Source: Longimicrobiaceae bacterium (lineage in GTDB: Bacteria > Gemmatimonadota > Gemmatimonadetes > Longimicrobiales > Longimicrobiaceae). Taken from it: 39,559 bases of DNA. The position numbers were made by a program, and so were the translations under genes. The number at the start of each line of letters is the position of its first letter. The first letter of the stretch is position 1. Positions 4,142-28,221 of this stretch are shown here, in pieces. Location: NCBI GenBank assembly GCA_035696245.1, contig DASRQW010000386.1, positions 1-39,559 on the forward strand. The letters run 5' to 3'. The notes under the pieces were generated by a model. The model was given only the letters and a program-made list of their open reading frames with translations. It had not been told where the DNA came from and did not search any database.

Positions 4142-4696
4142 ATGGAAGACCTGAAGCAGGTCCGCGAGCTCCTCGACGAGATCAACGCGGCCATCTCGAG
4201 CTACGACGCCGTGTTCAAGGAGACGGCGCGCGACATCCTGGTGGAGCACGCATTCCGCCGCCCGCCCGCGCGCGCCGCGTCGGCCCGCTCCGACCGGGAC
4301 GAGGGCGGCGAGGGCGAGGACGAGGCGCAGCCCCGGCGCCGCGGCCGTCCGCGCGGCTCGGTGAACGCGCGGCGCGGCGGGCAGGGCATCGCCAGCCTGG
4401 TGGAGCGCTGGAGCCCGGAGACCATGGCCGAGCGCGCGCTGCTGGGCGCCTACTCGCTGGCCCGCGGCAAGGCCGACCGCACGGTGACCAGCCAGGCCAT
4501 CAACGCCGAGCTGAAGAAGAACGGCCTGCCGGTGCCCAACATCACCCGCGCCATCGAGTCGAACCTGCGGGCCAAGCCGCCGCTGATGGTGCAGAAGAAG
4601 AAGATGGGCACCACGCGCCAGGCCCGTAAGCAGTACGCGATCACCACCGAGGGCGTGGAGTTCGTGGAGAGCCACCTGCGGGCGGACGAGGAGTAG
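4142..4696 (+). CDS. Small protein with AT-hook-like linker and winged-helix-like C-terminus
   Basis: I do not recognise a named family for this 184-residue protein. Residues 1-40 (MEDLKQVRELLDEINAAISSYDAVFKETARDILVEH) look like a coiled coil or helical hairpin. Residues about 45-80 are charged and end in RRRGRPRGSVN, a good AT-hook core (RGRP flanked by Arg) that would enter the DNA minor groove. Residues about 90-184 (WSPETMAERALLGAYSLARG...VTSQAINAELKKNGLPVPNITRAIESNL...KQYAITTEGVEFVESHL) have the helix-helix-helix-strand pattern of a winged-helix domain. A DNA-binding architectural or regulatory protein is the likely role, but this is inference. The start ATG 4142 is preceded by AGGGA. 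An upstream ATG at 4121 is less well placed. A strong terminator follows, and the gene stands alone between the macro-domain gene and the signalling operon. Confidence 0.6.
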   Translation: MEDLKQVRELLDEINAAISSYDAVFKETARDILVEHAFRRPPARAASARSDRDEGGEGEDEAQPRRRGRPRGSVNARRGGQGIASLVERWSPETMAERALLGAYSLARGKADRTVTSQAINAELKKNGLPVPNITRAIESNLRAKPPLMVQKKKMGTTRQARKQYAITTEGVEFVESHLRADEE

Positions 4697-4719
4697 TCTC
4701 GTCCGCAGGGGTGGAAGGG

Positions 4720-4753
4720 AGGGCCCGGGGCCACGGCGGCTCCGGGCCCTTTT
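4720..4753 (+). terminator. Rho-independent terminator
   Basis: GGGCCCGG (4721-4728) pairs with CCGGGCCC (4742-4749) and is followed by TTTT (4750-4753). It ends the AT-hook protein gene and insulates the operon that follows. Confidence 0.85.
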
Positions 4754-4821
4754 CGCGTCCGGCACGTCCGTTTCACGCCGTTCCTCCCCCCGTGTCCACG
4801 ACGTCCGCTCGCCGTGCGTCG

Positions 4822-4849
4822 TTGACACGGTCCTCCGCGCAGGTAGTTT
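4822..4849 (+). promoter_or_regulatory. Candidate promoter of the signalling/exopolysaccharide operon
   Basis: A consensus TTGACA at 4822-4827 is followed after 16 bases by TAGTTT at 4844-4849. The start point would be near 4856, leaving a leader of about 90 bases before the TTG start at 4949. It lies after the strong terminator at 4720-4753, which fits the start of a new transcription unit. Confidence 0.55.
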
Positions 4850-4948
4850 ACGCAGCGGCATGCGCCCGCAGCTCGCCCCCCGGCTGCACGCGGCACGGCT
4901 CCCGCCGCGCCGTGAGGCGGGGCGCAAGGAACCCTCATTCCCACACTC

Positions 4949-7564
4949 TTGCCCATCCTCCCGCAGCGTACCCGTCCATCCACGCCGTACGCCGGCCGCT
5001 ACGTCGCGGGCTTCGCCGTGCTGCTCGCAGTGCTGGTGGGGCTGGTGGTGGTGGGCTATGCTAACTTCCGCCGCCTCGCCGAAGCGAACCGCTGGAGCCT
5101 GCACACGTACGCCGTGCTGGCAGCCAACGACGCCATGGAGGAGGCGCTGGCCACCACCGAGACGGCGTTCCGCGGTTTCGCGCTCACCGGCGACGCGGAC
5201 CAGCTGGACGCGTGGGTGCACGGGCGCGAGCAGTTCCGCAGCAGCCTGGGCCGGGCGGTCGCGTTGACGCGGGACAACCCCGTGCAGCAGCGGCGCCTGG
5301 AGACGCTCCGCGCCATGGAGGTGCGCTGGGAGGCGATGCAGGGCGTGCCGCGCCCCGTGGCCGGGGGCGCCGGCGGGGTCCCGGACGCGCAGGCGCGGGC
5401 AGGCGGCGTGGCGCGCATCCGCGAGCGGGCGGTGCTGATGGACTCCATGCGGGCCGTGATCGGCCGGATCGGCGAGGGGGAGTCGGCGCTCCTGCTGCGG
5501 CGCGCGGCGCGCGCGGACGAGCTGAAGCGTTCCACCGAGGCGCTGATCCTGGGGGGCGGCGCGTTCGGCATCGCGCTGGCCGCGGGGCTGGCGCTGATGC
5601 TCACGCGCCGTACCCGCCGCGTGGCCGAGGCCAACCGCGAGCTGGCCGGCGAGGTGGGCGAGCGCAAGCTGGCGCAGCGGGCCGCCGAGCGGCTGGGCCG
5701 CCAGAACGAACTCATCCTGAGCTCCGCCGGCGAGGGCATCTACGGCGTGGACGTGGACGGCTACACCTCGTTCCTCAACCCCGCCGCGGCCGCCATGCTG
5801 GGCCGCGACGCCGCCGACCTGGTGGGCCGCCCGCTGGAGACGGTGCTCCAGCTCGAGGAGCCGTGCGACGGCGACGCGCGCGGCCACTCCGCAGTGCGCG
5901 AGACGCTGCGCACGGGCGCGACCCGCCGCCTGGGCCGCTGCTCGCTGCGCCGGGCCGACGGCTCGCGCTTTCCGGTGGAGCTGGTGAGCGCGCCGCTTCT
6001 GGAGGAGGGGCGCATCGCCGGGGCCGTGGTCACCTTCCGCGACATCACCGAGCGGCTGGAGGTGGAGCGGATGAAGGACGAGTTCATCTCGGTGGTCAGC
6101 CACGAGCTGCGCACGCCGCTCACCTCCATCCGCGGCTCGCTGGGCCTGCTGGCGGGCGGCAAGATGGGGGAGATGAGCGAGCGGGTGCAGCGGCTGCTGG
6201 AGATCGCGGTGCAGAACACCGACCGCCTGGTGCGCCTGATCAACGACATCCTCGACATCGAGCGCATGGAGTCCGGCAAGGCGACGATGGAGATGCGGAC
6301 CGTGGAGGCGGCGTCGCTCGTGCGCGACGCGGCGGACGTGATGGAGGCGATGGCGGAGAAGGCGGGCGTCGTCCTCCGCGTGGAAGCCGTGGCCGCCGCG
6401 GTGCGCGCCGACCCGGACCGCATCCTCCAAGTGCTCACCAACCTCCTCTCCAACGCCGTGAAGTTCTCGCCCGCCGGGTCCGAGGTGTCGCTCTCGGCCG
6501 AGGCGCGCGACGGGCAGGTGCTGTTCGGGGTGCGCGACCACGGGCGCGGCATCCCCGCCGACAAGCTGGACACAGTGTTCGAGCGCTTCCAGCAGGTGGA
6601 CTCGTCCGACTCGCGGCAGAAGGGCGGGACCGGCCTGGGCCTTGCCATCTGCCGCAGCATCGTGCAGCAGCACGGCGGGCGCATCTGGGCCGAGAGCGTG
6701 GCGGGGGAGGGCAGCACCTTCCGCTTCTCCATTCCCTCCGCCCAGCCGGCGGAGGCCGACGAGGCGCCCGCGGCCGCCGACGACGCCAGGGGTGCCCTGG
6801 TGATGGTGGTGGACGACGACGCCACGGTGCGCGCGGTCGTCACCCGCATCCTGCACGGGTGGGGCTACCGCGTCGTGGCCGCGGCCGACGGCGAGACGGC
6901 GCTGGAGCTGGCGCGCATCCGCCGTCCGGACGCCATCCTGCTCGACGTGGTGATGCCGGGGATGGACGGCTGGGAGACCCTGGGGGCGCTCAAGGGGATG
7001 CCCGAGACGGCCGCGATCCCCGTCATCATCCTGAGCGCGCTGGAGCCCGGCGACGCGGCTGCGGCGGCGTCCGAGGCGGTGGGGTGGGTGAGCAAGCCCT
7101 TCGGCGACGACGACCTGCTGCGGCAGCTGGAGGCGGCGGTGAGCGACCGCGCCAAGCACGGCCGCGTGCTGCTGGTGGAGGACGACGAGGGCCTGGCCGG
7201 GGTGCTGGCCGAGATCTTCGGGCGGCACGGCATCGAGACGGTTCACGCCGCCACCGGGCGCGAGGCCGTGGCGCTGGGGATCCAGCACCCGCCGGACATG
7301 ATCGTGCTGGACCTGGCGCTGCCCGAGGGCGACGGCTTCTGGGTGGTGGACTCGCTGCGGCGGCACAACCAGCTGCGGCACGCGCGCCTGGTCGTCTACA
7401 GCGCCCGCGACCTGGACGCCGACGAGCGCGCACGCCTCATGCTGGGCCCCACCGAGTTCCTCACCAAGGGCCGGGTGGCGCCCCGCGACTTCGAACGCCG
7501 CGTGGTGGCGCTGCTGAACCAGCTCGTCCCCGCCGCGCCTTCCGCACCCGAGACGGACCGATGA
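4949..7564 (+). CDS. CHASE3/PAS hybrid histidine kinase with two receiver domains
   Basis: This is an 871-residue inner-membrane sensor. Domains in order: membrane helix about 17-38; extracytoplasmic helical CHASE3-like domain about 42-190 (AMEEALATTETAFRGFALTGD is characteristic); second membrane helix about 197-218; a short coil; a PAS domain about 250-370 ending VTFRDITERLEVERMKDEF; HisKA with phospho-acceptor H385 in SVVSHELRTPL; and an HATPase domain with N box NLLSNAVKFSP and G boxes DHGRGIP and GGTGLGLAI. Two C-terminal receiver domains carry acceptors D666 (ILLDVVMPGMDG) and D788 (IVLDLALPEGDG). REC2 has a Ser in the usual Thr/Ser position (VVYSARD) and K in TKGR, so it may be weakened. 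The start is a TTG with a poor ribosome site, so the N-terminus is uncertain by a few residues. The stop overlaps the next start (ATGA). It heads the operon and is the likely signal input. Confidence 0.92.
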   Translation: MPILPQRTRPSTPYAGRYVAGFAVLLAVLVGLVVVGYANFRRLAEANRWSLHTYAVLAANDAMEEALATTETAFRGFALTGDADQLDAWVHGREQFRSSLGRAVALTRDNPVQQRRLETLRAMEVRWEAMQGVPRPVAGGAGGVPDAQARAGGVARIRERAVLMDSMRAVIGRIGEGESALLLRRAARADELKRSTEALILGGGAFGIALAAGLALMLTRRTRRVAEANRELAGEVGERKLAQRAAERLGRQNELILSSAGEGIYGVDVDGYTSFLNPAAAAMLGRDAADLVGRPLETVLQLEEPCDGDARGHSAVRETLRTGATRRLGRCSLRRADGSRFPVELVSAPLLEEGRIAGAVVTFRDITERLEVERMKDEFISVVSHELRTPLTSIRGSLGLLAGGKMGEMSERVQRLLEIAVQNTDRLVRLINDILDIERMESGKATMEMRTVEAASLVRDAADVMEAMAEKAGVVLRVEAVAAAVRADPDRILQVLTNLLSNAVKFSPAGSEVSLSAEARDGQVLFGVRDHGRGIPADKLDTVFERFQQVDSSDSRQKGGTGLGLAICRSIVQQHGGRIWAESVAGEGSTFRFSIPSAQPAEADEAPAAADDARGALVMVVDDDATVRAVVTRILHGWGYRVVAAADGETALELARIRRPDAILLDVVMPGMDGWETLGALKGMPETAAIPVIILSALEPGDAAAAASEAVGWVSKPFGDDDLLRQLEAAVSDRAKHGRVLLVEDDEGLAGVLAEIFGRHGIETVHAATGREAVALGIQHPPDMIVLDLALPEGDGFWVVDSLRRHNQLRHARLVVYSARDLDADERARLMLGPTEFLTKGRVAPRDFERRVVALLNQLVPAAPSAPETDR

Positions 7565-7941
7565 GCGCCAAGCGAATACTGGTGGTGGACGACGAGGACG
7601 ACATCCGCGAGGTGGCGCAGCTCAGCCTGGAGATGGTGGGCGGCTGGGAGGTGCTCACCGCCAGCTCCGGCGCCGAAGCCCTGCGCCGCGCCGCCGAGGA
7701 GCGGCCGGACGCCATCCTGCTCGACGTGATGATGCCGGGGATGGACGGCCCCACCACGTTCCAGCAGCTGCGCGGCGATCCCGCCACGGCCGCCATCCCC
7801 GTGATCCTGCTCACGGCCAAGGTGCAGCCGGCGGACCGGCGCCGCTTCGTGGACCTGGGCGTGGCCGGGGTGCTCGCCAAGCCGTTCGACCCCATGGAGC
7901 TGGCCGCGCAGGTGTCCGAAGCGCTGGGCTGGAGCGCGTGA
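7561..7941 (+). CDS. Single-domain response regulator (CheY-like)
   Basis: This 126-residue stand-alone receiver domain has the acidic pair in ILVVDDEDD, phospho-acceptor D55 in AILLDVMMPGMDG, switch Thr in ILLTAK and Lys in LAKPFDP. It has no output domain, so it probably shuttles phosphate between the upstream hybrid kinase and the HPt domain of the downstream protein, or acts by protein contact. ATG 7561 overlaps the kinase stop (ATGA). Its own TGA overlaps the next start (GTGA at 7938-7941), so all three proteins are likely made in fixed proportion. Confidence 0.95.
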   Translation: MSAKRILVVDDEDDIREVAQLSLEMVGGWEVLTASSGAEALRRAAEERPDAILLDVMMPGMDGPTTFQQLRGDPATAAIPVILLTAKVQPADRRRFVDLGVAGVLAKPFDPMELAAQVSEALGWSA

Positions 7942-10574
7942 CCCTGGGCCCCCCCGCGGAAGGCGGCACACGCGTCCTGCTGGCGGGGCTGCCCGATACC
8001 GACCCGGCCTGGCTGGCCGCGCGCGTGCCGGGCGTGCGCGCCCAGTCCGCCGCCACCGGCGAGGCGGCGCTGGCGGCGCTGCGGGGCGGCGGCTGGGCCC
8101 TGGTGGTGGCGGACGACGCCCTGCCGGGGCTTTCCGCGCGCACGGTGCTGGAGCGCGCGGCCGAGGCGGCCGGCTGCCCGCCCGTGTTCCTGGTGCTCCC
8201 GCGCTCGGGCGCGGGGCTGTCGCACGGCGACGCGGCGCGGCTGGGCATCAGCCGCGTCTTCTTCCACCCGCTGGGGCCGGACGAGGTGGCGCGCCAGGTC
8301 GCCGCGGCGCTGGGGCTGCCGGAGCCCGGGCCCGAGCCCCGGGCGCACGCCGCCCCCTCGCCCGCGGCGGAGGTGGCCGGCGCGGTCGCCGCGCTGTGGG
8401 AGCGCTTCCGCGGCACCATCCTGGAGCGCGTGGACGTGGTGGAAGAAGCCGCGCTCGCGGTCCTGGAAGGGCGGCTCGACCCCGAGCTTCGCGGCCGGGC
8501 GGAGCGCGAGGCGCACAAGCTGGCGGGCAGCGTGGGCACCTTCGGCTTCGCGGAGGCGTCCGTCGTCGCCCGGCAGGTGGAGGGCGTGCTCTCCGGCACC
8601 GCCCCCCTCGGCTCGGCGGAGGCATTGCAGCTCACCGACGCCGCCGTCGCCCTGCGGACCGAGCTGAGCCGCCCCGCGCCGTCCAGCCCCGCATCTCCCG
8701 CGGGCACCGCATCTCCCGGCGGCTCCGCATCTTCCGGCGGGGCGACGTCTCCGCCCGGCGCCGCATCTCCCGGCACCACATCTCCCGAACCCGCATCTTC
8801 CGCCCTCTCGTCGTCCGACGGGACGGCGGCATCTCGCGCGTCCGGCGACGGCTCGCCGGCCGACGCGTCTCAGGCCGTGGTCGGACGGGCGCAGGGGCGG
8901 GACGGCGGGGCGCCGGTGCAGCGGCTGCTGATCGTGGACGCGGACGCGGAGCTGGGCGACCGGCTGGCGATGGAGGCTTCGGGACGAGGGATGGCGGCGC
9001 GCGTGGTGGGCAGCGTCGCGGCGGCGCGGGAGGCCCTGCGGCAGGGCGGGGTGGACGCGGTGCTCATCGACCACGACGTGCCCGAGGGCGAGGACGCGGC
9101 GCTGGAGCTGATGGGCGAGCTGTCCGAGCGCGAGCCGCCGGTCGCCGTCGTCGCGCTCACCGCGAGGGCGACGCTGGCGGACCGGGTGGACGTGGCGCGG
9201 CGCGGCGGGCGCGGCTTCGTGCAGAAGCCGGTGACGCCCGGGCGGGTGCTGGACACGGTGCAGGAGGTGCTGCGGGGCTCGCGCGCGCACGGAAGCTCGG
9301 TGCTGGTGGTGGACGACGACGAGCACGTGCTGGGCGCCGTCCGCTCGCTCCTCTCGCCCACGGGCGTGGACGTGCACACGCTAGACGACCCGCTGCGCTT
9401 CTGGGACGCGCTGGAGGCCCACGCGCCGGACGTGCTGGTGCTGGACGTGGACATGCCGCACGTGAGCGGCTTCGAGCTGTGCCGCGTGGTGCGCAACGAC
9501 CCGCGCTGGAAGTCGCTGCCGGTGCTCTTCCTCACCGCGCGGACCGACGCGGCCAGCATCCAGCGCCTCTTCGGCTCCGGCGCCGACGACTACGTGGCGA
9601 AGCCGTTCGTGGGGCCGGAGCTGGTGACGCGCATCACCAACCGCCTGGAGCGGGTGCAGCTGCACCGCGCGCTGGCCGACACCGACGCGCTCACCGGCGT
9701 GGCCAACCGGCGCAAGAGCGAGGAGTCCATCACCCAGCTCCTGCGCCTGGCGGCGCGGCAGCAGCAGCCGTTCTCAGTGGGCATCGTGGACCTGGACTTC
9801 TTCAAGCTGGTCAACGACCGCGCCGGCCACGCGGTGGGCGACGAGGTGCTGCGGCGCCTGGCCAAGCTGCTGCTGCGCAGCTTCCGCGCGGAGGACGTGG
9901 TGGCGCGCTGGGGCGGCGAGGAGTTCGTGGTGGGGATGTACGGGATGGAGAAGGACGACGGCGTGACGCGGCTCATGCGCACGCTCGACGCGCTGGGCGA
10001 GGAGCCCTTCACCGACCGCGACGGCGAGGTCTTCCACGTGGCCTACAGCGGCGGCGTGGCGCAGTACCCGCAGGACGGCGTGGAGCTGTCCGCCCTGTAC
10101 CGCGCGGCCGACGGGGCGCTGTTCCAGGCCAAGGGCGCGGGCCGCGGGCGCGTGCTGCCCGCCGGGTGGACGCCCGACGCGCCCCAGCGGGCCGAGAGCG
10201 TGGACGTGCTGGTGGTGGACGACGACGACGCCATCGCCCGCCTTCTCGTGCACGCGCTGGAGACGCGCGGCTTCCGCACGCGGTGGATCGCGGACGGGCA
10301 GACCGCGGCGGACTCGCTCCTCGGCCAGCGGCCCAGGCTGAAGGCGCGCGTGGTGCTGCTGGACGTGGACCTGCCGGGGCTGGACGGCCTGGGCCTCCTG
10401 CGCGCCCTGGCCCGTGACCGCGTGCTGGACCGGACGCGGGTGATCATGCTCACCGCGCGCTCGGTGGAGACCGAGGTGCTCCAGGCGCTGGACCAGGGCG
10501 CCTACGACCACGTCGCCAAGCCGTTCAGCATCCCCGTCCTGGTGCAGCGCGTGCGCCGCGCCATGCGGGGCTGA
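7938..10574 (+). CDS. Multidomain phosphorelay diguanylate cyclase (REC-HPt-REC-REC-GGDEF-REC)
   Basis: The protein has 878 residues and starts at GTG in a GTGA overlap. Order: a degenerate receiver (about 11-128, normal acidic pair absent, DD at 59-60); an HPt domain (about 145-225) with phospho-His H193 in REAHKLAGSVGTFGF; a Ser/Pro/Ala/Gly linker (about 240-315) built from a DNA repeat; receiver 2 (about 326-440, D378 in LIDHDVPEG); receiver 3 (about 448-565, D503 in LVLDVDMPHVSG); a GGDEF domain (about 570-745) with GGEEF at 659-663; and receiver 4 (about 755-878, D809 in LLDVDLPGLDG). The cyclase has an RxxD inhibitory site (RAED) five residues before GGEEF, so it should make c-di-GMP under feedback control. 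Having HPt and several receivers in one chain suggests it is both relay node and output of the upstream kinase. It is soluble, with no membrane segments. Confidence 0.92.
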   Translation: MTLGPPAEGGTRVLLAGLPDTDPAWLAARVPGVRAQSAATGEAALAALRGGGWALVVADDALPGLSARTVLERAAEAAGCPPVFLVLPRSGAGLSHGDAARLGISRVFFHPLGPDEVARQVAAALGLPEPGPEPRAHAAPSPAAEVAGAVAALWERFRGTILERVDVVEEAALAVLEGRLDPELRGRAEREAHKLAGSVGTFGFAEASVVARQVEGVLSGTAPLGSAEALQLTDAAVALRTELSRPAPSSPASPAGTASPGGSASSGGATSPPGAASPGTTSPEPASSALSSSDGTAASRASGDGSPADASQAVVGRAQGRDGGAPVQRLLIVDADAELGDRLAMEASGRGMAARVVGSVAAAREALRQGGVDAVLIDHDVPEGEDAALELMGELSEREPPVAVVALTARATLADRVDVARRGGRGFVQKPVTPGRVLDTVQEVLRGSRAHGSSVLVVDDDEHVLGAVRSLLSPTGVDVHTLDDPLRFWDALEAHAPDVLVLDVDMPHVSGFELCRVVRNDPRWKSLPVLFLTARTDAASIQRLFGSGADDYVAKPFVGPELVTRITNRLERVQLHRALADTDALTGVANRRKSEESITQLLRLAARQQQPFSVGIVDLDFFKLVNDRAGHAVGDEVLRRLAKLLLRSFRAEDVVARWGGEEFVVGMYGMEKDDGVTRLMRTLDALGEEPFTDRDGEVFHVAYSGGVAQYPQDGVELSALYRAADGALFQAKGAGRGRVLPAGWTPDAPQRAESVDVLVVDDDDAIARLLVHALETRGFRTRWIADGQTAADSLLGQRPRLKARVVLLDVDLPGLDGLGLLRALARDRVLDRTRVIMLTARSVETEVLQALDQGAYDHVAKPFSIPVLVQRVRRAMRG
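8691..8802 (+). repeat. Degenerate tandem repeat encoding a Ser/Pro-rich linker
   Basis: Within the linker of the multidomain cyclase the word GCATCTYCCG recurs at 8691, 8709, 8727, 8763 and 8793, with further variants between. Spacing is about 18 bases and multiples, so the reading frame is kept and each unit adds an Ala-Ser-Pro/Ser-Gly type segment. Copy number could change linker length without breaking the gene. Confidence 0.7.
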
Positions 10575-10583
10575 CGCGGCGAG

Positions 10584-11642
10584 ATGCCCTCCTCCCTCCA
10601 GCTTCTCCACTTCGCCCTGGAAGTCCTGGGCCTCCTCTTCGCCGTCACCCTGGCCGCACTATTCGGCCATGGATTGTGGATGGTGCGCACCCAGCGCCGC
10701 GCCGCGGTCCCCCTCGCCCTCGGGCGCGAGGCGCTGCTCGCCGTCGCCGCGGGTGAGCCGTTCACCGAGGAGGACTTCGCCGTCCTGGAGTCGCTTCCGC
10801 GCAGGTACCAGATCCGCCTGTTCGTGGAGCTGGCGGCGAGCGTGGCGGGCGCCAACCGGGGCGACCTGAACGACCTGGCGCGGCGGCTGGGGATCACCGA
10901 GGCGGGGGAGAGGCTGTGCCGCAGCCGGCTGTGGTGGCGGCGCCTGCGGGGCGTGCGCCTGCTCGCGGCCGTGGGCGGGGGCGAGGGCGTGGTGCCGGGC
11001 CTCTTCCGCGACGCCAGCGACGCGGTGCGGGCCGAGGCGGTGGAGTGGGCGGCAGACCATCCGTCGGCCGTGGTGGTGCGCGCGCTGCTGGAGCTGCTGC
11101 CGGAGCCGCAGGGCGCCGCCGGTTTCGCGCTGCGCGACTCGCTGCTGCGCATCGGCGCGCCGGTGGTGCAGCCGCTGGAGGAGTACATGGAGACGCACGG
11201 GGGCACCGCGGCCGAGGCGGCGCTGGAGGTGGCGGTGGGCCTTCCCGACTCGCGCTTCACCCCGGCGGCGCTCCGGCTCACGCACGACGCCTCGCCCGGC
11301 GTGCGCGCCCGCGCCGCGGCGCTGACGGGAGCCATCGGCGGCGACGCGGCGGTGTCCACGCTCACGCGGCTGCTGGAGGACTCGGACGCGGGGGTGCGCG
11401 CCGCCGCCGCGCGGTCGCTCGGGCTGCTCGGCCACTGGCCCGCCGCGCCCGTCATCGCCCGCCTGCTGCGCGACGGCTCGTGGGACGTGCGGCGCGAGGC
11501 CGGGCTGGCGCTCCGCTCGCTGGGCAGCCCCGGCCAGCTGCTGCTGCGCCGCGCGCTGGAGGGCGACGACGCCTTCGCCGCCGACATGGCGCGCCAGGTG
11601 CTCGACCTCCCCAGGTCCGCCGCGGGCCGGCGGGCCGGATGA
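10584..11642 (+). CDS. Membrane-anchored HEAT-repeat protein
   Basis: This 352-residue protein has one N-terminal membrane helix (about 8-33, LHFALEVLGLLFAVTLAALFGHGLWMV) followed by a cytosolic alpha-solenoid. HEAT/PBS-lyase-type repeats are clear from about residue 115: VRLLAAVGG, VRAEAVEWAADHPS, VRARAAALTGAIGGDAAVSTLTRLLEDSDAGVRAAAARSLGLLG and WDVRREAGLALRSLG. Such solenoids are scaffolds with no enzymatic activity. It starts 9 bases after the cyclase stop and its own TGA overlaps the glycosyltransferase ATG, which argues for a physical partnership with that enzyme. It may be the synthase's cytosolic adaptor or c-di-GMP-responsive subunit, but no known c-di-GMP motif is seen; this role is inference. 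Confidence 0.85.
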   Translation: MPSSLQLLHFALEVLGLLFAVTLAALFGHGLWMVRTQRRAAVPLALGREALLAVAAGEPFTEEDFAVLESLPRRYQIRLFVELAASVAGANRGDLNDLARRLGITEAGERLCRSRLWWRRLRGVRLLAAVGGGEGVVPGLFRDASDAVRAEAVEWAADHPSAVVVRALLELLPEPQGAAGFALRDSLLRIGAPVVQPLEEYMETHGGTAAEAALEVAVGLPDSRFTPAALRLTHDASPGVRARAAALTGAIGGDAAVSTLTRLLEDSDAGVRAAAARSLGLLGHWPAAPVIARLLRDGSWDVRREAGLALRSLGSPGQLLLRRALEGDDAFAADMARQVLDLPRSAAGRRAG

Positions 11643-13105
11643 GCTTCGCAGAGGTCGTCACGCTCGTCCTGGTGCGGCTGGAGACGGCCATCCTCGTCTA
11701 CTTCCTGGCCGTCAACCTCTGGTACGCCGTCCTCCTCGTCAGCGCGTCGCTGGAGATGCGGTTGCACTCGCTGCACTCGCGCGGGCAGGCGCGCTGGAAG
11801 ATGCTGGGCTCCCGCGCATCTCCCACCATCAGCATGCTGGCCCCGGCGTACGGCGAGGAGGCGACCATCGCCGAGAGCGTGCGCGCGCTGCTCGCCCTGT
11901 ACTACCCTAACCTGGAGATCGTCGTCGTCAACGACGGGTCCAGGGACCGGCAGATGCAGGTGCTGATCGACCAGTTCGAGCTGGTGCCCATCCACCCGGT
12001 GTACCGCCGGCTGATCCCGTCCAACGACGTGGTGGGCCTCTACCGCTCGCGCACCCATCCCAACCTCGTGGTCGCGGACAAGGTGAACGGGGGCAAGGCC
12101 GACGCGCTGAACGCGGGCCTCAACCTGGCCACCGGCGAGCTGGTGTGCGCCATCGACGCCGACACGCTGATCGAGCCGGACTCGCTGCAGCGCATGGTGC
12201 GGCCCTTCCTGGACAGCGATCAGGTGCTGGCCGTGGGCGGCACCATCCGCATCGCGAACGGGTCGCGGGTGCGCGGCGGGCGGGTGGTGCAGACGTCGGT
12301 GCCGCGGCGCGCCATCCCCGGCTTCCAGACGGTGGAGTACCTGCGCGCCTTCCTCTTCGGCCGCCTGGGCTGGAACCGGCTGGGCGGCAACCTCATCATC
12401 TCCGGCGCCTTCGGCCTCTTCCGCCGCGACAGCGTGCTCGCCGCCGGCGGCTACGCGCACGACACCGTGGGCGAGGACATGGAGCTCGTGCTCCGCCTGC
12501 GCCGCCACGGCTACGAGACGGGCGGGCCGCACCGCATCGACTTCGTGCCGGACCCGGTCGCCTGGACCGAGGCGCCGGAGACGCTGCGCGTGCTGGGCCG
12601 CCAGCGCGACCGCTGGCACCGCGGCCTGGCCGACGTGCTGTGGCGCCACCGCGGGCTGCTCTTCAACCCGTACTACGGCGCGATGGGCCTCGTGGCCTAT
12701 CCGTACTTCCTGCTCGTGGAGCTGCTCGCGCCGCTGGTGGAGGCCATCGGCATCCTCGGCCTGGTGGTCGGGCTGTTCATGCACGCCGTCGACGTGCCGT
12801 TCGCCATCCTCTTCTTCCTCACCGCGTACGGCCTGGGCGCGCTGCTCACCACGGCCACGCTGGTGCTGGAGGAGATGACCTTCCGCCGCTACGACACCCT
12901 GCGCGACCGCATGCTGCTGGTGGCCTGGACGCTGCTCGAGAACTGCGGCTACCGCCAGCTCACCGTGTGGTGGCGCCTGCGCGGCCTGGTAAGCTACCTG
13001 CGTGGCAGCAAGCAGTGGGGCGCCATGGAGCGCCGCGGCTTCCAGCCCAAGCCCGCGAACGCCCCCTCCCGCCGCGCGGACGACGCGCCCCCGCTCGTCC
13101 CATGA
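11639..13105 (+). CDS. Processive family-2 glycosyltransferase (exopolysaccharide synthase)
   Basis: This 488-residue inner-membrane protein resembles PgaC, hyaluronan and cellulose synthases. After a first membrane helix (about 10-36) the GT-A domain shows the full processive signature: D99 in VVVNDGSRD, DAD at 173-175 (AIDADTLIEPD), the catalytic-base region GED at 278-280 (VGEDMELVLRLRRHG), and QRDRW at 322-326. Three or more helices follow (about 345-420), expected to form the export channel with the amphipathic interface. There is no PilZ domain and no MshEN-like extension. If c-di-GMP controls it, the receptor must be another subunit, as in PgaC/PgaD. ATG 11639 overlaps the HEAT gene stop (ATGA). 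The polymer cannot be predicted from sequence. Confidence 0.9.
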   Translation: MSFAEVVTLVLVRLETAILVYFLAVNLWYAVLLVSASLEMRLHSLHSRGQARWKMLGSRASPTISMLAPAYGEEATIAESVRALLALYYPNLEIVVVNDGSRDRQMQVLIDQFELVPIHPVYRRLIPSNDVVGLYRSRTHPNLVVADKVNGGKADALNAGLNLATGELVCAIDADTLIEPDSLQRMVRPFLDSDQVLAVGGTIRIANGSRVRGGRVVQTSVPRRAIPGFQTVEYLRAFLFGRLGWNRLGGNLIISGAFGLFRRDSVLAAGGYAHDTVGEDMELVLRLRRHGYETGGPHRIDFVPDPVAWTEAPETLRVLGRQRDRWHRGLADVLWRHRGLLFNPYYGAMGLVAYPYFLLVELLAPLVEAIGILGLVVGLFMHAVDVPFAILFFLTAYGLGALLTTATLVLEEMTFRRYDTLRDRMLLVAWTLLENCGYRQLTVWWRLRGLVSYLRGSKQWGAMERRGFQPKPANAPSRRADDAPPLVP

Positions 13106-13166
13106 CGAAGGTCGGCCGTCCCGCGCGAACGTTTCGCCCACGCGGCCGATGCGGAAACGTTAGAAC

Positions 13167-13219
13167 CCAACCCTCTCCCGCTTGCGGGGGAGGGTGCGAG
13201 CCTAAGCGAGCGGGAGGGG
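13167..13219 (+). repeat. REP-like intergenic repeat, copy 2, inside the operon
   Basis: This matches copies 1 and 3, with CCCTCTCCCGC-TT-GCGGGGGAGGG as the first hairpin. It lies in the 158-base gap between the synthase gene and the hydrolase gene, the only sizeable gap in the operon. A separate 8-bp inverted repeat, AACGTTTC (13128-13135) with GAAACGTT (13154-13161), precedes it. These hairpins could stabilise the upstream message or partly terminate transcription. Confidence 0.85.
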
Positions 13220-13263
13220 GGGGCCCCCGGATGCGCAAGTCCATGATACCTCGGGAGATGTGA

Positions 13264-15993
13264 ATGCAGTCACCCTACGGTTCGATGCAACACATCTCCG
13301 CAGATGCGAAGCGGTCCTTCACCCGCGCCGCATCTCCGCTGCTCGTCCTGCTCGCGCTTTTTCTCGGCGCTCGGGCGGATGCGCAGGAGACGGCGTGCCC
13401 GCGCGCGGCCGGTGCGCAGGTCGAAGCGGGCTGGACCGCCTACAGGGCAGGGCAGATGGCTGCCGCGCGCACCGCCTTCGAAGCCGCGCTCCGCCGCTGC
13501 CCGGACGATCCCGGCGCGCGCACCGGCCTCGGCTACGTCCTCCTCCGCTCGGACGACACCCCCGGCGCCCGGCGCGCGTTCGAGGCGGTGACGGTCGCAT
13601 CTCCCAACAACGTGGACGCCCTCGTCGGCCTCGGCATCGCCGCGTGGCGGCAGGGCGACCTTGCCGCCGTGCGCACCGCGTTCACCCGCGTCCACCGTAT
13701 CGACCCCAGCAACACCGATGCGCGCGACTACCTGGCCCGCCTGCCCGAGGCGCCGGAAGCCAGCGTCGTCCGCGCCCCTCTCGTCCTCCCCGACACGCTC
13801 GTCTACCCGTCGCGCACGCACGGCGACCGCTTCGAGGTCCGCACCGCGCGCGGCTGGCAGCCGTTCTACGTCAAAGGCGTCAACCTGGGCGCGGCGCTTC
13901 CCGGAAAGCATCCCAGCGAGTTCCCGGACAGCGCGACCTATGCGGGGTGGATCGCCGGGATGTCGGAGATGGGCGCCAACACGGTGCGCGTCTACACCAT
14001 CCACCCGCCCGTCTTCTACCGCGTGCTGCGGCAGTGGAACCTCGCGCATCCCAGTAACCCTCTGTGGGTGATCCACGGCGTGTGGACCGAGCTGCCGGAG
14101 GACGACGACTTCGACGGGCCTGCGTGGGAGGGCGACTTCTTCGCCGAGATGCACCGCGTGGTGGATCTCCTGCACGGCCGCGCCGACATCGCCCCGCGGC
14201 CCGGCCACTCCAGCGGCTCGTACACGGCGGACGTCTCGCCGTGGGTGCTGGCGTACATCATCGGCCGCGAGTGGGAGCCGTTCAGCGTCGTCGCGTACAA
14301 CCAGCTCCGCGCGGGGAGAACCGGCTTCGGCGGGCGGTATCTCACGGTGAGCGGCGGCACTCCGATGGACGCGTGGATGGGCAAGGCGTGCGAGGAGATC
14401 GTTGCGTACGAGATGCGCACGTACCGCGCGCAGCGGCCGGTCGCCTACACCAACTGGCCCACGCTGGACCCGCTGCACCACCCCACGGAATCCACCGTGT
14501 CGGAAGAGATCGCGATCCGCGAGCGGCTGGGCGAGCAGGTGGGCCGCCGCCCGCTGGAGTACGACAACGACGCCACCGGGCTGGACGCCAGCATCGTCCG
14601 CCCCACCGCGGCGTTCCCGGCGGGCTACTTCGCGTCGTACCACGCGTATCCGTACTATCCGGACTTCATGGTGCTGGACCCCGGATACGGCCGGGCATCG
14701 TCTCCCGAAGGCCGTTCCAACTACTTCGGCTACCTGCGCGAGCTGAAGGCGCACCACCCCGGCATGCCCGTCGTCATCTCCGAATACGGGGTGCCGGGCA
14801 GCATGGGCAGCGCGCACCTCCAGCCGCAGGGCTGGCACCACGGCGGCCACACGGAAGAGGAGATGGCCGCGGCCGATGCCCGGCTGACGAGGGAGATCGC
14901 CGAGTCGGGGATGGCCGGCGGTGCCATCTTCGCGTGGATCGACGAGTGGTTCAAGAAGAACTGGATCACCATCGAGTTCGAGATCCCGCTGGAGCGCAAC
15001 CGCCTGTGGCTCAACAGGTTGGATGCGGAGCAGCACTACGGCATGATCGCCATGGAGCCCGGCGTCGTGGTCCCCGGCCGCACGCTGGCGGACCGGCTGC
15101 CGGCCTGGCGCCGCATGCCCGCGCTGTACGCCACGGCGGACGGCGCGACGGTCCGCGCCGCGGCGGACGAAGCGTACCTGTGGGTCTTCGTGGACCGCGG
15201 CCGTGGGCCCGCATGGAAGGACCTCTACCTCGGCTTCGACGTGGTCAAGCCGGAGGCGGGCGACTTCCGCTGGCCGGGCGCCGTCGGCCAGCGCCTGCCC
15301 GTCGGCATCGAGTTCGCCCTGCACGCATCGGGAGACGAGGTGCGGCTGATGGCCGATCCGCCGTCGAACCCGTTCGCCATCACGCTCAACACGCAGATCC
15401 GCGGCGGCACGGTCACGCCGCCGCCGGCCATCTCCAACCCGCTGCCGGGCTTCTTCTTCGGCCGCTGGGAGCAGCACTTCAACCGGCCGTTCATCAGCCT
15501 GGCCAACGACGATGGGCGATACGACTCGCTGCGCGTGGTCACCAACCGCCGCCGCTTCGGGCGCGACGGGACGGAGTACGCCGGGTTCGGGTACGACCGC
15601 GGCATCCTGCGCCAGGGCGAGCCGCCGGACGGCGCGTGGGAGCGGCTGGACCGCGAGGGGGTGATGGAGATTCGCATCCCCTGGGGCCTCATCGGCTTCA
15701 CCGACCCCAGCGAGCGCCGCGTGCTGCAGGACGCGCCCGGCGCCACCGCGGCGAACGACTTCGGCACGGTGACGGTGCCCGGCATCCGCATTCTCGGCGC
15801 GATGGTGGATGGGGGAGGGCGCTGGCGCTCGTTCCCGGCGAGCGGCCGGGCGGCGGACGTGCCGGTCTTCACCTGGCCCGCGTGGGAGCAGCCGCGCTAC
15901 GTCGCCCGCCGCCGGCCCGCGTTCGATTCGATGCGCGACGCCTTCACCCGCATGAACCCCGTGGTGATGACGGCTTCGGGAGACGGTCGATGA
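13264..15993 (+). CDS. Secreted TPR-glycoside hydrolase (GH5/clan A-like) of the exopolysaccharide operon
   Basis: The protein has 909 residues. A signal peptide (about 16-41, SPLLVLLALFLGARADA-Q) predicts periplasmic location. TPR-like repeats occupy about 50-155 (AGWTAYRAGQMAAARTAFEAAL and two more). A TIM-barrel hydrolase domain about 180-560 starts FYVKGVNLGAALPGKHPSEFP. E338 in GREWEPF is the likely acid/base, and E507 in VVISEYGVPG the likely nucleophile, the paired Glu pattern of clan GH-A. Residues about 590-890 form a beta-rich domain (EAYLWVFVDRG...LYLGFDVV) that could be a CBM9-like carbohydrate-binding module; that part is a weak call. ATG 13264 follows GGGAG and is preferred to the ATG at 13285. 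The stop overlaps the next gene (ATGA). It probably trims or releases the exported polymer, like BcsZ, PslG or the PgaB hydrolase domain. Confidence 0.82.
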   Translation: MQSPYGSMQHISADAKRSFTRAASPLLVLLALFLGARADAQETACPRAAGAQVEAGWTAYRAGQMAAARTAFEAALRRCPDDPGARTGLGYVLLRSDDTPGARRAFEAVTVASPNNVDALVGLGIAAWRQGDLAAVRTAFTRVHRIDPSNTDARDYLARLPEAPEASVVRAPLVLPDTLVYPSRTHGDRFEVRTARGWQPFYVKGVNLGAALPGKHPSEFPDSATYAGWIAGMSEMGANTVRVYTIHPPVFYRVLRQWNLAHPSNPLWVIHGVWTELPEDDDFDGPAWEGDFFAEMHRVVDLLHGRADIAPRPGHSSGSYTADVSPWVLAYIIGREWEPFSVVAYNQLRAGRTGFGGRYLTVSGGTPMDAWMGKACEEIVAYEMRTYRAQRPVAYTNWPTLDPLHHPTESTVSEEIAIRERLGEQVGRRPLEYDNDATGLDASIVRPTAAFPAGYFASYHAYPYYPDFMVLDPGYGRASSPEGRSNYFGYLRELKAHHPGMPVVISEYGVPGSMGSAHLQPQGWHHGGHTEEEMAAADARLTREIAESGMAGGAIFAWIDEWFKKNWITIEFEIPLERNRLWLNRLDAEQHYGMIAMEPGVVVPGRTLADRLPAWRRMPALYATADGATVRAAADEAYLWVFVDRGRGPAWKDLYLGFDVVKPEAGDFRWPGAVGQRLPVGIEFALHASGDEVRLMADPPSNPFAITLNTQIRGGTVTPPPAISNPLPGFFFGRWEQHFNRPFISLANDDGRYDSLRVVTNRRRFGRDGTEYAGFGYDRGILRQGEPPDGAWERLDREGVMEIRIPWGLIGFTDPSERRVLQDAPGATAANDFGTVTVPGIRILGAMVDGGGRWRSFPASGRAADVPVFTWPAWEQPRYVARRRPAFDSMRDAFTRMNPVVMTASGDGR

Positions 15994-17804
15994 TCCGCCG
16001 TGCCTTCCTTCCGCTCGTCGTGGCGCTCCTCGCCCTCGCCGCCGCACATCGTCCGGCAGATGCGCAGAGGACGGCGGCGGACAGTGCATGGACGAGCGGC
16101 GACATGGCTACGGCGGAGCGGCTGTATTCCGCGCGGCTCGCGGCCGACTCGACCGACCAGCTGGCGCTGCACCGCATGGCGCTGATCCTGGCTTGGGCGC
16201 AGAAGTACGACGAGAGTATCCACCTGTTCGACCGGCTGCTGGCGTACGCGCCGGACAACCGCGAGGCGTACGTGGACCGGGCGCGGGTGATGGCCTGGCG
16301 CGGCGACCCCGCCGCGGGCGTGGAGTCGCTGAACCAGCTTCTCGCCCGCGACCCCGCGTACCTGCCGGCGCTCCAGGCGCGCGCGCAGTTCCAGTCGTGG
16401 GCGGGCGCCTACGACGCCGCGCTCGCCACGTACGGCCAGATCCAGCGCATCAGCCCTGAGGATCGCACCGTGGGCTACGACCGGGCGCGCGTGCTGGGCT
16501 GGGCGTCGCGCTTCGGCGCCGCGTCCGCCGTGTACGACTCGCTCCTGCGCGTGAACCCGAACGACCGGGCGGCTCTGCTGGGTCTGGCCCAGGTGCTGAC
16601 ATGGTCGGGGAAGGCGGATTCCGCGTCCGCCGTGTACCGGCGCGTGCTGGCCGCGCACCCCGGCGACCTGGACGCGATGCGCGGCCTGGCGCGAGCCTCC
16701 GCGTGGGGCGGACACCTGGTGACGGCCGAGCGGGAGTGGAGGGACGTCCTCGCGCGGAAGCCGGACGATCCGGCGGCGCTGGTGGGGCTCGCGCAGACGC
16801 TGCGGTGGCAGGGCAGGGACGCCGCCGCGCTGGAGGCGGTGGAGCACGCGTTGCGCGTCGCGCCCACGGACAGGGATGCGCGCGCCGAGCTGCCGTTCGC
16901 GCGGCTTCCATTCGTCCCCCGCGCCGCGCCCTCGTACACGTACGAGTCCGACTCCGACGGCAACCGCATCCACACCGCCACGCTCTCCGGCGGCTGGCGC
17001 CCCGTGCCGCGGCTGGACGTGCGCGGCGAGGCCTACTTCCGCCACGCGCGCGACAACGGTGAGGCTGATGCAGAGGCTGAGGGCGGCGCCGTCACGCTCT
17101 CGACGCAGCTCGAGCCGGGCTGGACGCTCTCCGGCACCGGCGGCCTCAGCACGTCCAACCTCGCAGGCGGACGGGTGACCCCCGTTGTGCGCGCGAGCGT
17201 GGCCACGCCCGGCCGATACAGGACGAATGGCTCGCTAGCGTACTCGCACTCCGCGGTGGACGGCACGTCGCTGCTCATCCGCCAGGCGGTGACGATGGAC
17301 GAGCTGGGCCTCTCCGCCAGCTTCGCTCCGGCAGACGGATGGAGTCTGAGCGCAGGCGGCGGCGGCGCGCGCTACCACGGCCGCGTCTCCGGCGAGCACA
17401 ACGACCGTTGGAACGCCCAGGCCGCCGTCTCACGGCGCGTGTCGAGCCTCTTCACGCTCGGCGTGGGAGCCCGCGCCTTCGGCTTCAAGCGTGACCTCAC
17501 CGACGGCTACTTCGACCCGGACTTCTACGGCCTCGCCGAGCTTCGCGCGCGCCTCAACCGCGAGACGAAGCGCTGGGCCGTCGGCGCGGAGGTCGCGCCC
17601 GGCGTCCAGCAGGTGCGCCACAGCGGCGATCCCTCCGGCTCCTTCCGCGCGACGGGCAGCCTGGCGCGCATCTTCGGCCCCGGCCGCCAGCTAGGCATCT
17701 CCGGCGCCTTCGCCAACTCCGGCCTCACCCGGCTTTCGCCGACTGACACGAACTCGGCCTACCGCTATCACGCGGTAAGCGTGAACGGGACTTGGAGTTT
17801 TTGA
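15990..17804 (+). CDS. TPR protein with C-terminal outer-membrane beta-barrel (YaiO/PgaA-like exporter)
   Basis: The protein has 604 residues. A signal peptide ends at about residue 25 (LVVALLALAAAHRPADA-Q). About eight TPR-like helical pairs run from about 28 to 310 (for example LLAYAPDNREAYVDRARVMAWRGDPAAG and LLGLAQVLTWSGKADSASAVYRRVL). A strand-rich region from about 320 to the end shows alternating aromatic and polar residues (YTYESDSDGNRIHTATLSGGWRPV) and finishes with YHAVSVNGTWSF, a terminal Phe typical of barrel insertion signals. This TPR-then-barrel layout matches outer-membrane secretins of synthase-dependent polysaccharide systems (PgaA, BcsC) and the YaiO family. The start overlaps the hydrolase stop (ATGA). 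It is the last gene of the operon and the expected outer-membrane exit. No convincing terminator follows. Confidence 0.85.
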   Translation: MIRRAFLPLVVALLALAAAHRPADAQRTAADSAWTSGDMATAERLYSARLAADSTDQLALHRMALILAWAQKYDESIHLFDRLLAYAPDNREAYVDRARVMAWRGDPAAGVESLNQLLARDPAYLPALQARAQFQSWAGAYDAALATYGQIQRISPEDRTVGYDRARVLGWASRFGAASAVYDSLLRVNPNDRAALLGLAQVLTWSGKADSASAVYRRVLAAHPGDLDAMRGLARASAWGGHLVTAEREWRDVLARKPDDPAALVGLAQTLRWQGRDAAALEAVEHALRVAPTDRDARAELPFARLPFVPRAAPSYTYESDSDGNRIHTATLSGGWRPVPRLDVRGEAYFRHARDNGEADAEAEGGAVTLSTQLEPGWTLSGTGGLSTSNLAGGRVTPVVRASVATPGRYRTNGSLAYSHSAVDGTSLLIRQAVTMDELGLSASFAPADGWSLSAGGGGARYHGRVSGEHNDRWNAQAAVSRRVSSLFTLGVGARAFGFKRDLTDGYFDPDFYGLAELRARLNRETKRWAVGAEVAPGVQQVRHSGDPSGSFRATGSLARIFGPGRQLGISGAFANSGLTRLSPTDTNSAYRYHAVSVNGTWSF

Positions 17805-17952
17805 CCTTCCGATCCTGTCGAACGTCGGCGAACCGATAGCATAAGAGATCCATCCAGACAGTTCGGATGGGATCGCGACCCAGAGGGAGATTTCGTTCAG
17901 CACCCCTGGGCCCGACGAAGATCCGCATGGTGGAAACCGGACAAGATTCCGG

Positions 17953-17981
17953 TTGTGCGAATACGGTCCTGCTCATACGTT
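17953..17981 (+). promoter_or_regulatory. Possible promoter of the RHS gene
   Basis: TTGTGC at 17953-17958 and TACGTT at 17976-17981 are separated by 17 bases, giving a start near 17988. If real, it rules out the in-frame GTG at 17955 as the RHS start. The -35 box is weak. Confidence 0.3.
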
Positions 17982-18104
17982 CTCAAAACCAGCAGCACGC
18001 CAGCCTTCGTTTTTCGCTCGTCTGTCCCACTGCACACCATCTCCCGGCGTGCAGTCGCAATGCAGCCGTCTTCGACAAATTCCACCTTTATCACACGATT
18101 TCGC

Positions 18105-21100
18105 ATGATGCCCTTCCTCCGGCTCGTCCGCTCGGCTTCCCTCTCCATCGCACTGATCCTTCCTGTTGCGTGGACCTCCAACGCCGCCGCGCAGTGCAGT
18201 CCCACGCGCGCGGAGGCGGTCCAGGGCGTGTATCGCCAGGTGCTGGAGCGCGAGGCGACGCCGGGTGAGGTGGCGTTCTGGCAAGCCCCGCCAGACAGCG
18301 CACGGAGCATGCGCTACATCGTGCAGCAGGCCGTCTACTCCGTGGAGTACCAGACGCGCTTCGTCAACGGACGCACGAACGCCGACGTGACGAAGCAGCT
18401 CTACCTGCACCTGATGGCGCGCGAGCCGGTGGGCACGGAGTGGAGCTCGGCACCCGTGGGCAGCGACTGGTCAGGGGTGATGAACGCGCTGGTGGGCAGC
18501 AGTGAGTACACGGCACGGTTTGGTGATCGCGGGGTGCCGGGCAGCCCCATGCAGGTGTGGGACTGCACGAAGCCGGGTGTGTCGCTCGAGCCCGCGCAGG
18601 CATCGGCGACGCAGATGCGCGGCATGTGCCTGACGATCGCCGTCTCGGGCGGCGCGTACGAGTGCGGGGACCTGCGCCTGGCGCACGCGCTGCCGTCGGT
18701 GCGCATCCGCAGCAAGGCACGGACTCCCGTGCTGCTCTACAACAGCCAGCACGCACAGCCGCACCCGCTGGTGGGCGCCTACGTGACGCTGCCCGCCGCG
18801 GCCGACCGGGTGGACGCCACCGTGGCGGTCGCCGGGCAGTCACAGTCCCACACTGGGAGTTGGACGGGCTGGGGCGCGAACGTGTCGCGGCGCATCACCA
18901 TTGGCTGGGACTGGGACCTGACGAAGGAGACGGGCCTCTACCCGTACACGCTGCAGGTCACCGCGTACTCCGGCAGCAACGTAGTGGCGAGCTACACGGC
19001 ACAGGGCGAGATGGCGGTTGTCAACCGCTCCGCCTCGGCGTTCGGGGCGGGATGGTGGCTCGCGGGCTTCGAGCAGGTGATCCCCATCTCGAACAACCGC
19101 CTGCTGTGGGTGGGCGGGGACGGGAGCACGCAGGTCTACAACCCCGCGAGCTCCGCCTCGTACGTCTGGTACGGCGACGTGGTCTCGCGCGCCGACACGA
19201 TCCGGCAGTACGCGCCCACGCAGGCGTACGGCATCTACGTGCGCGAGCTGCCGGGGAAAGCGAAGCTGTGGTACGACTCGCTGGGCTGGCAGAACGCCAG
19301 CGAGGACCGCTTCGCACATCGCACGATCTTCGACGTGGACCCGGCCACGAAGCGGCTGAGCACGATCCACCTCTACGGCGTGAGCGGCTACCAGTACGGC
19401 TTCACCTACGCCAACGCAGGGAAGCTGAGCGCGGCGACGCTAACCGCCGGCACTGCGCAGCGCAGCGTCACGATGTCGGTGGATGGCACAGGCCGGCTGA
19501 CGCAGTTCACCGACCCGGACGCCACGACCGAGGTGATGACGTTCGACACCGCCGCCCTCACGCCGCGGCGCGTGGTGAAGCAGACGGACGCGCGAGGCAC
19601 CGTCTCGCGGTACGGGTACGATGCAGGTGGCAAGCTGGCGAACTCACGCCTGGAGATGCAGGGGCAGGGCTCGGACATCGTGCTCGGCTTCCAAGCGCAG
19701 GAGACGCGCGGGCTGGCGCCGAAGCCAACCGACCCACCGGGCGCGCCCGCCTGGACGACGGACACGTACACGCTGATGGGCGGGCCGCGCACCGACAGCA
19801 CCATCTACAACCGCTTCTGGCTGGACCGCTGGGGCGGGCCGCGCAAGGTCGTCAACGCCCGCGGCGACTCGACCGCGGTGGTAGTACGAGGAGATCCGCG
19901 CTTCCCGGGAGCGGTCACGCGCATGGACGCGCTGGGCGCCGGCGGTACACGCATGATCAGCCGCGCCTGGTACAACGCCCGCGGCGGCGTAGACAGCACG
20001 ATGGTGATGAACCCGCTGGGCGACGGCGCCAACCCGGTCACGAAGTACACGTACGGCAACACGAGCTGGCCGGACTTCGTGACGGAGGTGAGGTCGCCGA
20101 CGGGGCTCATCACGAAGATGCACTACGATGCGGCGGGCAACCGCGACTTTCAGCAGGTGGGGCAGGACAGCATGCGGGGCGTCCGCTACCACTACGACTC
20201 GGAAGGTCGCGTGGATTGGGTGCGGAGCGCGGCCGCGGCGGCTCGCGGTGAGGCCGCGGAGCAGGTGCTGTACGACGCCGTGCTCGGCAACCCGAGCGAG
20301 ACGCTGAGCCCCCTCGGCGCGCGCACCACCTCGCTGAGCGACGCCTACGGCCGCGTGATCCGCACGCGCAGCTACATCGACGCCGACTCCACGCACGTGG
20401 CCACCGACAGCACGGTCTACGACGTGATGGACCAGGTGACGCACACGTCCAGCTACGCGCCGTCGCTCCAGTACACGACCGTCGCCGGCAGCCTGATCAA
20501 GCAGACCGCGCATCCTACGCTGCACGTGCAGAACTTCTATGACCACGGCGGGCTGCTGCTGCGCGTGGACCGGTGGTCCGATCCAGACAGCCTGAGCATC
20601 GGCACCATCTCCACCCGCTGGCACTACGACCCCGCGGGGCGGAAGATCTCTGAGATGGCGCCGGACAACACGCCGGGCGACACCACGAACAACCCGGTCG
20701 AGCGCACCTACTACGACTTGGCCAGCAACGCGGACTCGGTGGTCACCCGGCTGGGCGACCGCATCAAGATGAAGTACGACGTGCTGAACCGCCTCACCGA
20801 CCGCTACGTCCCCTCGCGCACCGACGTGAGCGGCCCGATCCCGGGCGACACCTCGCACTTCGAGTACGATGCGGCCGGCAGCATGCTCGCGGCGAACAAC
20901 GCCACCGCGCGCATCTCACGGACGTACTTTCCCGGGGGTGCACTCAACACCGACCGCTCGTGGGTGGCGAAAAGCAATGGCAGCTTCGTCTCGGGTCAGC
21001 ACGACTACACCATCAGCCACGTCTACGACCTGGAAGGCCGGCAGGTCGCGCTCAATCACCCGCGGAGTCTCACGCAGGACAGCGCCGCGTGGCAGACGAC

Positions 21101-28167: not shown

Positions 28168-28221
28168 CCAACCCTCTCCCGCTTGCGGGGGAGGGTGCGA
28201 GCCTAAGCGAGCGGGAGGGGG
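28168..28221 (+). repeat. REP-like intergenic repeat, copy 3
   Basis: This is nearly identical to copy 2 through CAACCCTCTCCCGCTTGCGG and AGCCTAAGCGAGCGGGAGGG. It lies upstream of the carbamate kinase promoter. Together with the terminator and copy B it fills the 27973-28268 gap, which has no gene. Confidence 0.85.

Follow-up and report, generated by a model that had tools for sequence, protein, structure and literature searches.

We find that a HEAT-repeat protein and a processive-type GT2 synthase are encoded side by side as an obligate and widespread pair, a genomic fact that is well supported across bacteria and archaea. Our reference is a stretch of 39,559 nucleotides from a Longimicrobiaceae bacterium (the window), whose genome (70% G+C) is fragmented into 561 contigs and which very probably encodes a machine, under the control of a sensor, for making and exporting a sugar polymer. 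The nearest named relatives of its GT2 come from one Gemmatimonadota MAG and one Longimicrobiaceae MAG. A search of the open-access literature, with subscription papers and preprints outside its scope, returned no description of a HEAT protein together with a GT2 or a synthase; a systematic survey of exopolysaccharide operons makes no mention of HEAT (PMC7112194), and no database model was found that names the pair. Provisionally, we regard HEAT–GT2 as an unnamed class of synthase.

Seven genes on one strand make up the system in the window (Table 1), and Pfam, motif and TM analysis reproduced the order and domains given to them in the initial annotation. That annotation had counted five 4-base overlaps between neighbouring genes; we find four (kinase/REC, REC/cyclase, HEAT/GT2 and GH-like/barrel), along with the 9-base gap between cyclase and HEAT and the single gap of more than 100 bases, between GT2 and the GH-like gene, that it had described. 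Its single promoter found no support: no sigma-70-like site reaching 9 of 12 consensus positions occurs within window positions 4600-18100, and a dispersed palindrome lies in the 158-base gap. One transcript for all seven genes is therefore no more than a possibility. The GH-like and barrel genes may form a separate transcription unit, and in relatives they are often divergent or at another place. The 25-base palindrome (CCCTCTCCCGCTTGCGGGGGAGGGT) is a REP-like dispersed repeat found at window positions 13171-13195 and 28172-28196, with 123 copies in the genome at up to two mismatches (64 forward and 59 reverse). A large RHS/YD-repeat protein gene (17955-23393) lies directly downstream of the barrel gene and is unlinked to the system in relatives.

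Table 1. Features of the seven-gene system, in window coordinates.
Feature	Position	Strand	Evidence and remarks
Hybrid histidine kinase (HK)	4949..7564	+	2 TM, CHASE3-PAS-HisKA-HATPase-REC-REC; Pfam, motifs, TM prediction
HK H-box	6092-6118	+	Motif
HK REC Asp motifs	6935-6970 and 7301-7336	+	Motif
Stand-alone receiver (REC)	7561..7941	+	Pfam; ATGA 4-base overlap with HK
Regulator, REC-Hpt-REC-REC-GGDEF-REC	7938..10574	+	Pfam, motifs; GTGA overlap with stand-alone REC gene
Regulator Hpt His	8508-8528	+	Motif
Regulator I-site RAED and active-site GGEEF	9885-9926	+	Motif
Regulator C-terminal REC, KPFS motif	10518-10562	+	Motif
HEAT-repeat protein, one N-terminal TM helix	10584..11642	+	Pfam HEAT_2, TM prediction
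GT2 synthase, processive type, TM helices	11639..13105	+	Pfam, motifs; ATGA overlap with HEAT
GT2 motifs D, DAD, ED (as GED), QRDRW	11921, 12149, 12467, 12602	+	Motif
158-base gap GT2/GH-like, with palindrome 13171-13195	13106..13263	.	Dispersed repeat
Secreted TPR + GH-like protein	13264..15993	+	TPRs by Pfam; rest without Pfam match
GH-like segments IIGREWEP, VVISEYG, DEWFK	14257-14280, 14770-14790, 14938-14964	+	Family alignment
TPR-barrel, putative outer-membrane exporter	15990..17804	+	Signal peptide, TPR array, weak BCSC_C, terminal Phe; ATGA overlap with GH-like gene

Comparison with relatives shows that the seven genes are not conserved as one unit, as had been proposed, but as two modules. 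One consists of a REC-containing protein, HEAT and GT2 and recurs in many phyla, and the other of the GH-like protein and the TPR-barrel.

Loci were collected by scanning one genome per species for the GT2 (80 loci from many phyla) and, in a sample of 200 genomes of the phylum, by scoring as positive the 52 with a GT2 match at E < 1e-60. Gene calls outside annotated records came from a custom gene caller; many loci derive from MAGs, species labels could be wrong, and loci L008-L036 have short flanks only. HEAT lies directly upstream of GT2, or is fused with it in the case of one ORF, in all 105 loci that have enough upstream sequence to judge, and the junction is an exact 4-base overlap in 68 of them. 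Within the phylum sample, HEAT is present in 52 of the 52 GT2-positive genomes (Fisher p about 1e-47, with no correction for relatedness). Searched with a HEAT profile, the same 200 genomes yielded 59 strong matches in 53 genomes, weaker matches being partial and unlinked, and in the sole HEAT-only genome (G066) the GT2 is truncated by the contig end right behind the HEAT gene.

HEAT is still found upstream of GT2 relatives at only 32-40% identity. On plasmids, PGAP places a 'HEAT repeat domain-containing protein' ahead of GT2 in ten genera (Haloarcula, Salinirubellus, Halosolutus, Deinococcus, Mesorhizobium, Erythrobacter, Devosia, Bacteroides, Legionella and Planococcus) and a profile search adds Paenibacillus and Emticicia. 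The pair reaches Deinococcota, Bacillota, Pseudomonadota and haloarchaea. A single-sequence tblastn of HEAT against the plasmids gave no match where the profile search succeeded, a difference explained by the faster sequence divergence of HEAT compared with GT2. The weakest GT2 match, a deacetylase–GT2 fusion in Kocuria, is without HEAT and marks the edge of the family. Relatedness inflates the linkage counts, yet the phyla that carry the pair are far apart. The near-perfect linkage backs the earlier suggestion that HEAT is a likely partner subunit of the synthase, and it speaks for a shared function, not for physical contact. The refuting condition set in the initial annotation, regular occurrence of GT2 and HEAT without the other genes, holds for the GH-like, barrel, cyclase and kinase genes but not for the HEAT–GT2 pair itself. 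Very long HEAT proteins (1170-1175 aa, and one of 763 aa that is cut) are encoded directly upstream of divergent GT2 genes in L151 (G088), L157 (G066) and L152 (G194), an arrangement that is a variant of the pair.

The GT2 carries the D, DAD, ED and QxxRW motifs of a processive-type enzyme, as annotated, and structural modelling agrees with this. We modelled the pair by AF2 as the fused HEAT–GT2 ORF of a Rubrobacter (L089), in which both domains are well folded (mean pLDDT 84, pTM 0.71); by Foldseek, the GT2 part best matches hyaluronan synthase 7sp7 and BcsA, and the HEAT part matches HEAT-type alphaRep proteins. The model supports the folds of HEAT and GT2, not their contact. As a Rosetta stone the Rubrobacter fusion was rejected, its join being a frameshift in a GC-rich linker, and it was kept as a modelling device. 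With these motifs and folds, HEAT–GT2 likely makes an exopolysaccharide. The Pfam scan also agreed with the annotation that neither GT2 nor HEAT has a PilZ or MshEN domain, and the family scan that PgaD, BcsB and AlgK are absent from the seven proteins. In a Nitrospira MAG (L065, 9986-12991), the GT2 is fused to a C-terminal region of ~500 aa that has no Pfam match there and reads like a periplasmic TIM-barrel domain.

The sensor phosphorelay with a GGDEF regulator is in place as described, with kinase RECs, Hpt, GGEEF and RAED all present. Control by a diguanylate cyclase fits the window, where the GGEEF and the I-site RAED are intact, but an active cyclase is unusual among relatives. Among 94 regulators, 9 carry an intact GGDEF domain (GG[DE]EF in the window and eight other loci), in 34 the domain is catalytically degenerate and in 49 it is not detected, and two more are truncated (one intact-type, one degenerate-type); activity may persist in a few motif variants, for example RGDEF or GGEEI. 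RxxD survives in 28 of the 34 degenerate domains, and a degenerate GGDEF that keeps this motif is the signature reported for the c-di-GMP receptors PelD and BcsE (PMC8461298). These states change at least 15 times on a quick GT2 tree, and GGDEF has disappeared, with Hpt and RECs kept, from three loci of Arthrobacter/Zafaria and one of Longimicrobiaceae.

A REC-bearing gene stands immediately ahead of HEAT in 89 of 102 loci, often with a 4-base overlap. The C-terminal REC keeps its Lys in 94 of 94 regulators and its Asp in 75, the other 19 carrying Glu or Gly at that site, where no phosphorylation is possible. Conservation of its alpha4-beta5-alpha5 face (0.56) exceeds that of its N half (0.41) and that of the corresponding face in the neighbouring REC (0.40). 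REC–HEAT–GT2 also occurs in haloarchaea and Bacteroidota, with no cyclase encoded alongside; c-di-GMP signalling is not expected in haloarchaea. The loci of G021, G023 and G191 and those of Bacteroides and Legionella have no nearby REC. No single regulatory input is thus universal across HEAT–GT2 loci; the receiver is the steadier one, and c-di-GMP a second, lineage-dependent one.

From these data we propose a model, which we hold with moderate confidence, of a two-subunit, processive HEAT–GT2 synthase gated by a phosphorelay REC, with c-di-GMP as a second input in many lineages and with the GH-like protein and barrel processing and exporting the product. HEAT and GT2 together would form the inner-membrane synthase, in which GT2 would carry out polymerisation and translocation of the glycan and the HEAT solenoid, cytosolic but anchored in the membrane, would be its obligate partner and docking platform, and the regulator encoded just upstream would control them. 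In the window genome, the kinase would feed a phosphorelay that runs through its own RECs and the Hpt and RECs of the regulator and ends at the C-terminal REC. As a reasoned hypothesis, the alpha4-beta5-alpha5 face of this receiver would dock on HEAT and thereby gate GT2. The GGDEF domain of the window, with GGEEF and RxxD intact, would supply c-di-GMP locally, and the catalytically dead domains of relatives that keep an I-site are probably c-di-GMP receptors, as in PelD. Trimming or remodelling in the periplasm would fall to the GH-like protein, and export of the polymer to the TPR-barrel. We are more tentative, and would put the chances somewhat short of even, about the general form of this idea, in which HEAT–GT2 is a widespread two-subunit synthase of bacteria and archaea whose polymerisation is gated directly by REC docking on HEAT, a post-translational phospho-switch that works without transcription and, in many lineages, without c-di-GMP.

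Control could instead be classical, with c-di-GMP made by the cyclase binding the HEAT–GT2 interface directly and the receivers merely tuning the cyclase. The intact GGEEF and RAED of the window and the eight further loci with GG[DE]EF would suit this, and there is a precedent in Pga, whose synthase is under c-di-GMP control and where c-di-GMP is reported to bind the PgaC–PgaD interface (PMC8461298). We nevertheless consider it unlikely, as the intact domain is the minority state against 34 degenerate and 49 undetected ones, haloarchaeal and Bacteroidota REC–HEAT–GT2 loci have no adjacent cyclase gene, and neither HEAT nor GT2 showed a known c-di-GMP-binding domain in the Pfam scan. About as improbable, in our estimate, is that HEAT serves GT2 as a general factor for assembly or stability (a chaperone or scaffold) and that the signal takes effect at another point, such as transcription or sugar-nucleotide pools. 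The regular position of a REC-bearing gene immediately before HEAT argues against such a role, as does the conserved face of the C-terminal REC, which suggests a specific partner; it would, however, account for the pairs without adjacent REC or GGDEF (Bacteroides, Legionella, G021-type), and the regulator, although it has no DNA-binding domain, could work through c-di-GMP.

The product, too, might be other than an exopolysaccharide, namely a short glycan, a glycolipid or a wall polymer. Members in monoderms and archaea do not require an exporter in the outer membrane, and scores against TIGR03937 (PgaC), CelA and NodC fall far under their cut-offs. This reading is the least probable of the three, given the QxxRW motif, the resemblance in fold to hyaluronan and cellulose synthases, the YaiO or TPR-barrel partners that are frequent in diderm HEAT–GT2 loci and the GH16 genes among the neighbours of some.

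Among the known synthases of such systems, c-di-GMP acts as the switch via PilZ, PgaD, PelD or Alg44. A synthase with another obligate partner, present in Gram-negative, Gram-positive and archaeal lineages and paired with receiver domains, would imply that a substantial part of the exopolysaccharide machines in the environment has escaped notice and may be under direct control by phosphorylation. The route from two-component signals to matrix synthesis becomes testable in cultivable Arthrobacter, Deinococcus and Haloarcula. It also reveals a secreted GH-like family without a Pfam model that travels with the synthase.

Compared with known machines, the window system would count as a variant of the synthase-dependent exopolysaccharide systems, which are defined by an inner-membrane synthase, a c-di-GMP-binding PilZ domain or co-polymerase, a periplasmic modification enzyme and a TPR protein coupled to an outer-membrane pore (PMC7112194). 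Set against this definition (PMC7112194), the synthase is recognisable from its GT2 motifs, TM helices and hyaluronan synthase/BcsA fold match; in place of PilZ there is a GGDEF domain with an intact I-site; the candidate modification enzyme is the secreted GH-like protein, with an invariant Glu pair, no Pfam match and a low-confidence model; and the barrel has clear TPRs and a weak BCSC_C match (E=0.0015, below cut-off). Like PgaC–PgaD and IcaA–IcaD, the system joins a membrane GT2 to an obligate small partner gene, and PgaC is the best NCBIfam match of the GT2, but at 139.1 bits against a TIGR03937 cut-off of 422.3; unlike them, its partner is a HEAT solenoid rather than PgaD or IcaD, its control is tied to a receiver domain, and none of the seven proteins belongs to the PgaB deacetylase or PgaD/IcaD families. 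It shares with BcsA–BcsB–BcsC a processive GT2 fold, a putative TPR-barrel exporter architecture and the weak BCSC_C similarity, whereas it has neither PilZ nor BcsB and scores 67.3 bits against the CelA cut-off of 699.1.

Many relatives of the regulator resemble PelD and BcsE in their inactive GGDEF with an RxxD I-site; here, however, GGDEF is fused to phosphorelay receivers and Hpt and lies beside HEAT–GT2 rather than a PelF-type GT4, and the window regulator retains an intact active site. YaiO (PF19413), a TPR and barrel protein, is the partner of HEAT–GT2 in Balneolota, Mesorhizobium, Emticicia and Legionella, whereas the window barrel has no PF19413 match and, when aligned by profile with the YaiO set, corresponds to it mostly in the TPRs. 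For NfrA/NfrB, the NfrA family PRK09782 scores 17.4 bits against a cut-off of 1223, in the TPR region only. Hyaluronan synthase 7sp7, the best fold match of the GT2 part, shares 17% identity with it and is not known to have a HEAT partner.

The 'periplasmic hydrolase' of the initial annotation stands as a secreted protein with an invariant Glu pair, but its hydrolase activity is putative: outside the TPRs, no Pfam family matches its GH-like domain at E<10, and a profile search of PDB and Pfam gave nothing credible. An AF2 model was poor (pLDDT 49), and its Foldseek matches, which covered the TPRs only, were discarded. Family-wide, the invariant Glu residues lie in the IIGREWEP and VVISEYG segments, and these segments look like those of the acid/base and nucleophile residues in clan GH-A enzymes, although the GH-like fold itself is putative. 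The family is present in 24 of the 200 phylum genomes, 21 of which also carry the GT2 (p 1.6e-11), and its gene adjoins the barrel gene in the loci examined. It lies directly upstream of HEAT–GT2 in Deinococcus, Paenibacillus (twice) and Planococcus, and nearby in Actinomycetota. The family is linked with the pair in four phyla. The Planococcus copy is without both invariant Glu residues and may be inactive; at this locus (L185, on a plasmid of Planococcus maritimus), genes for a CotH kinase and a DUF4956 protein stand ahead of it and of HEAT–GT2. In L150 (5688-10115), GH-like domain, TPRs and barrel are fused into 1475 aa with no internal signal peptide.

A further conserved family of ~385 aa adjoins HEAT–GT2 in L095 (11392-12534), L080 (424-1599) and ten other loci from Myxococcota, Bacteroidota, Ignavibacteriota and Fidelibacterota, with no Pfam match in the two members scanned (L095 and L110). 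On a Legionella adelaidensis plasmid (L184), HEAT–GT2 and YaiO lie among nucleotide-sugar dehydrogenase and epimerase genes, neighbours that hint at a uronic-acid polymer.
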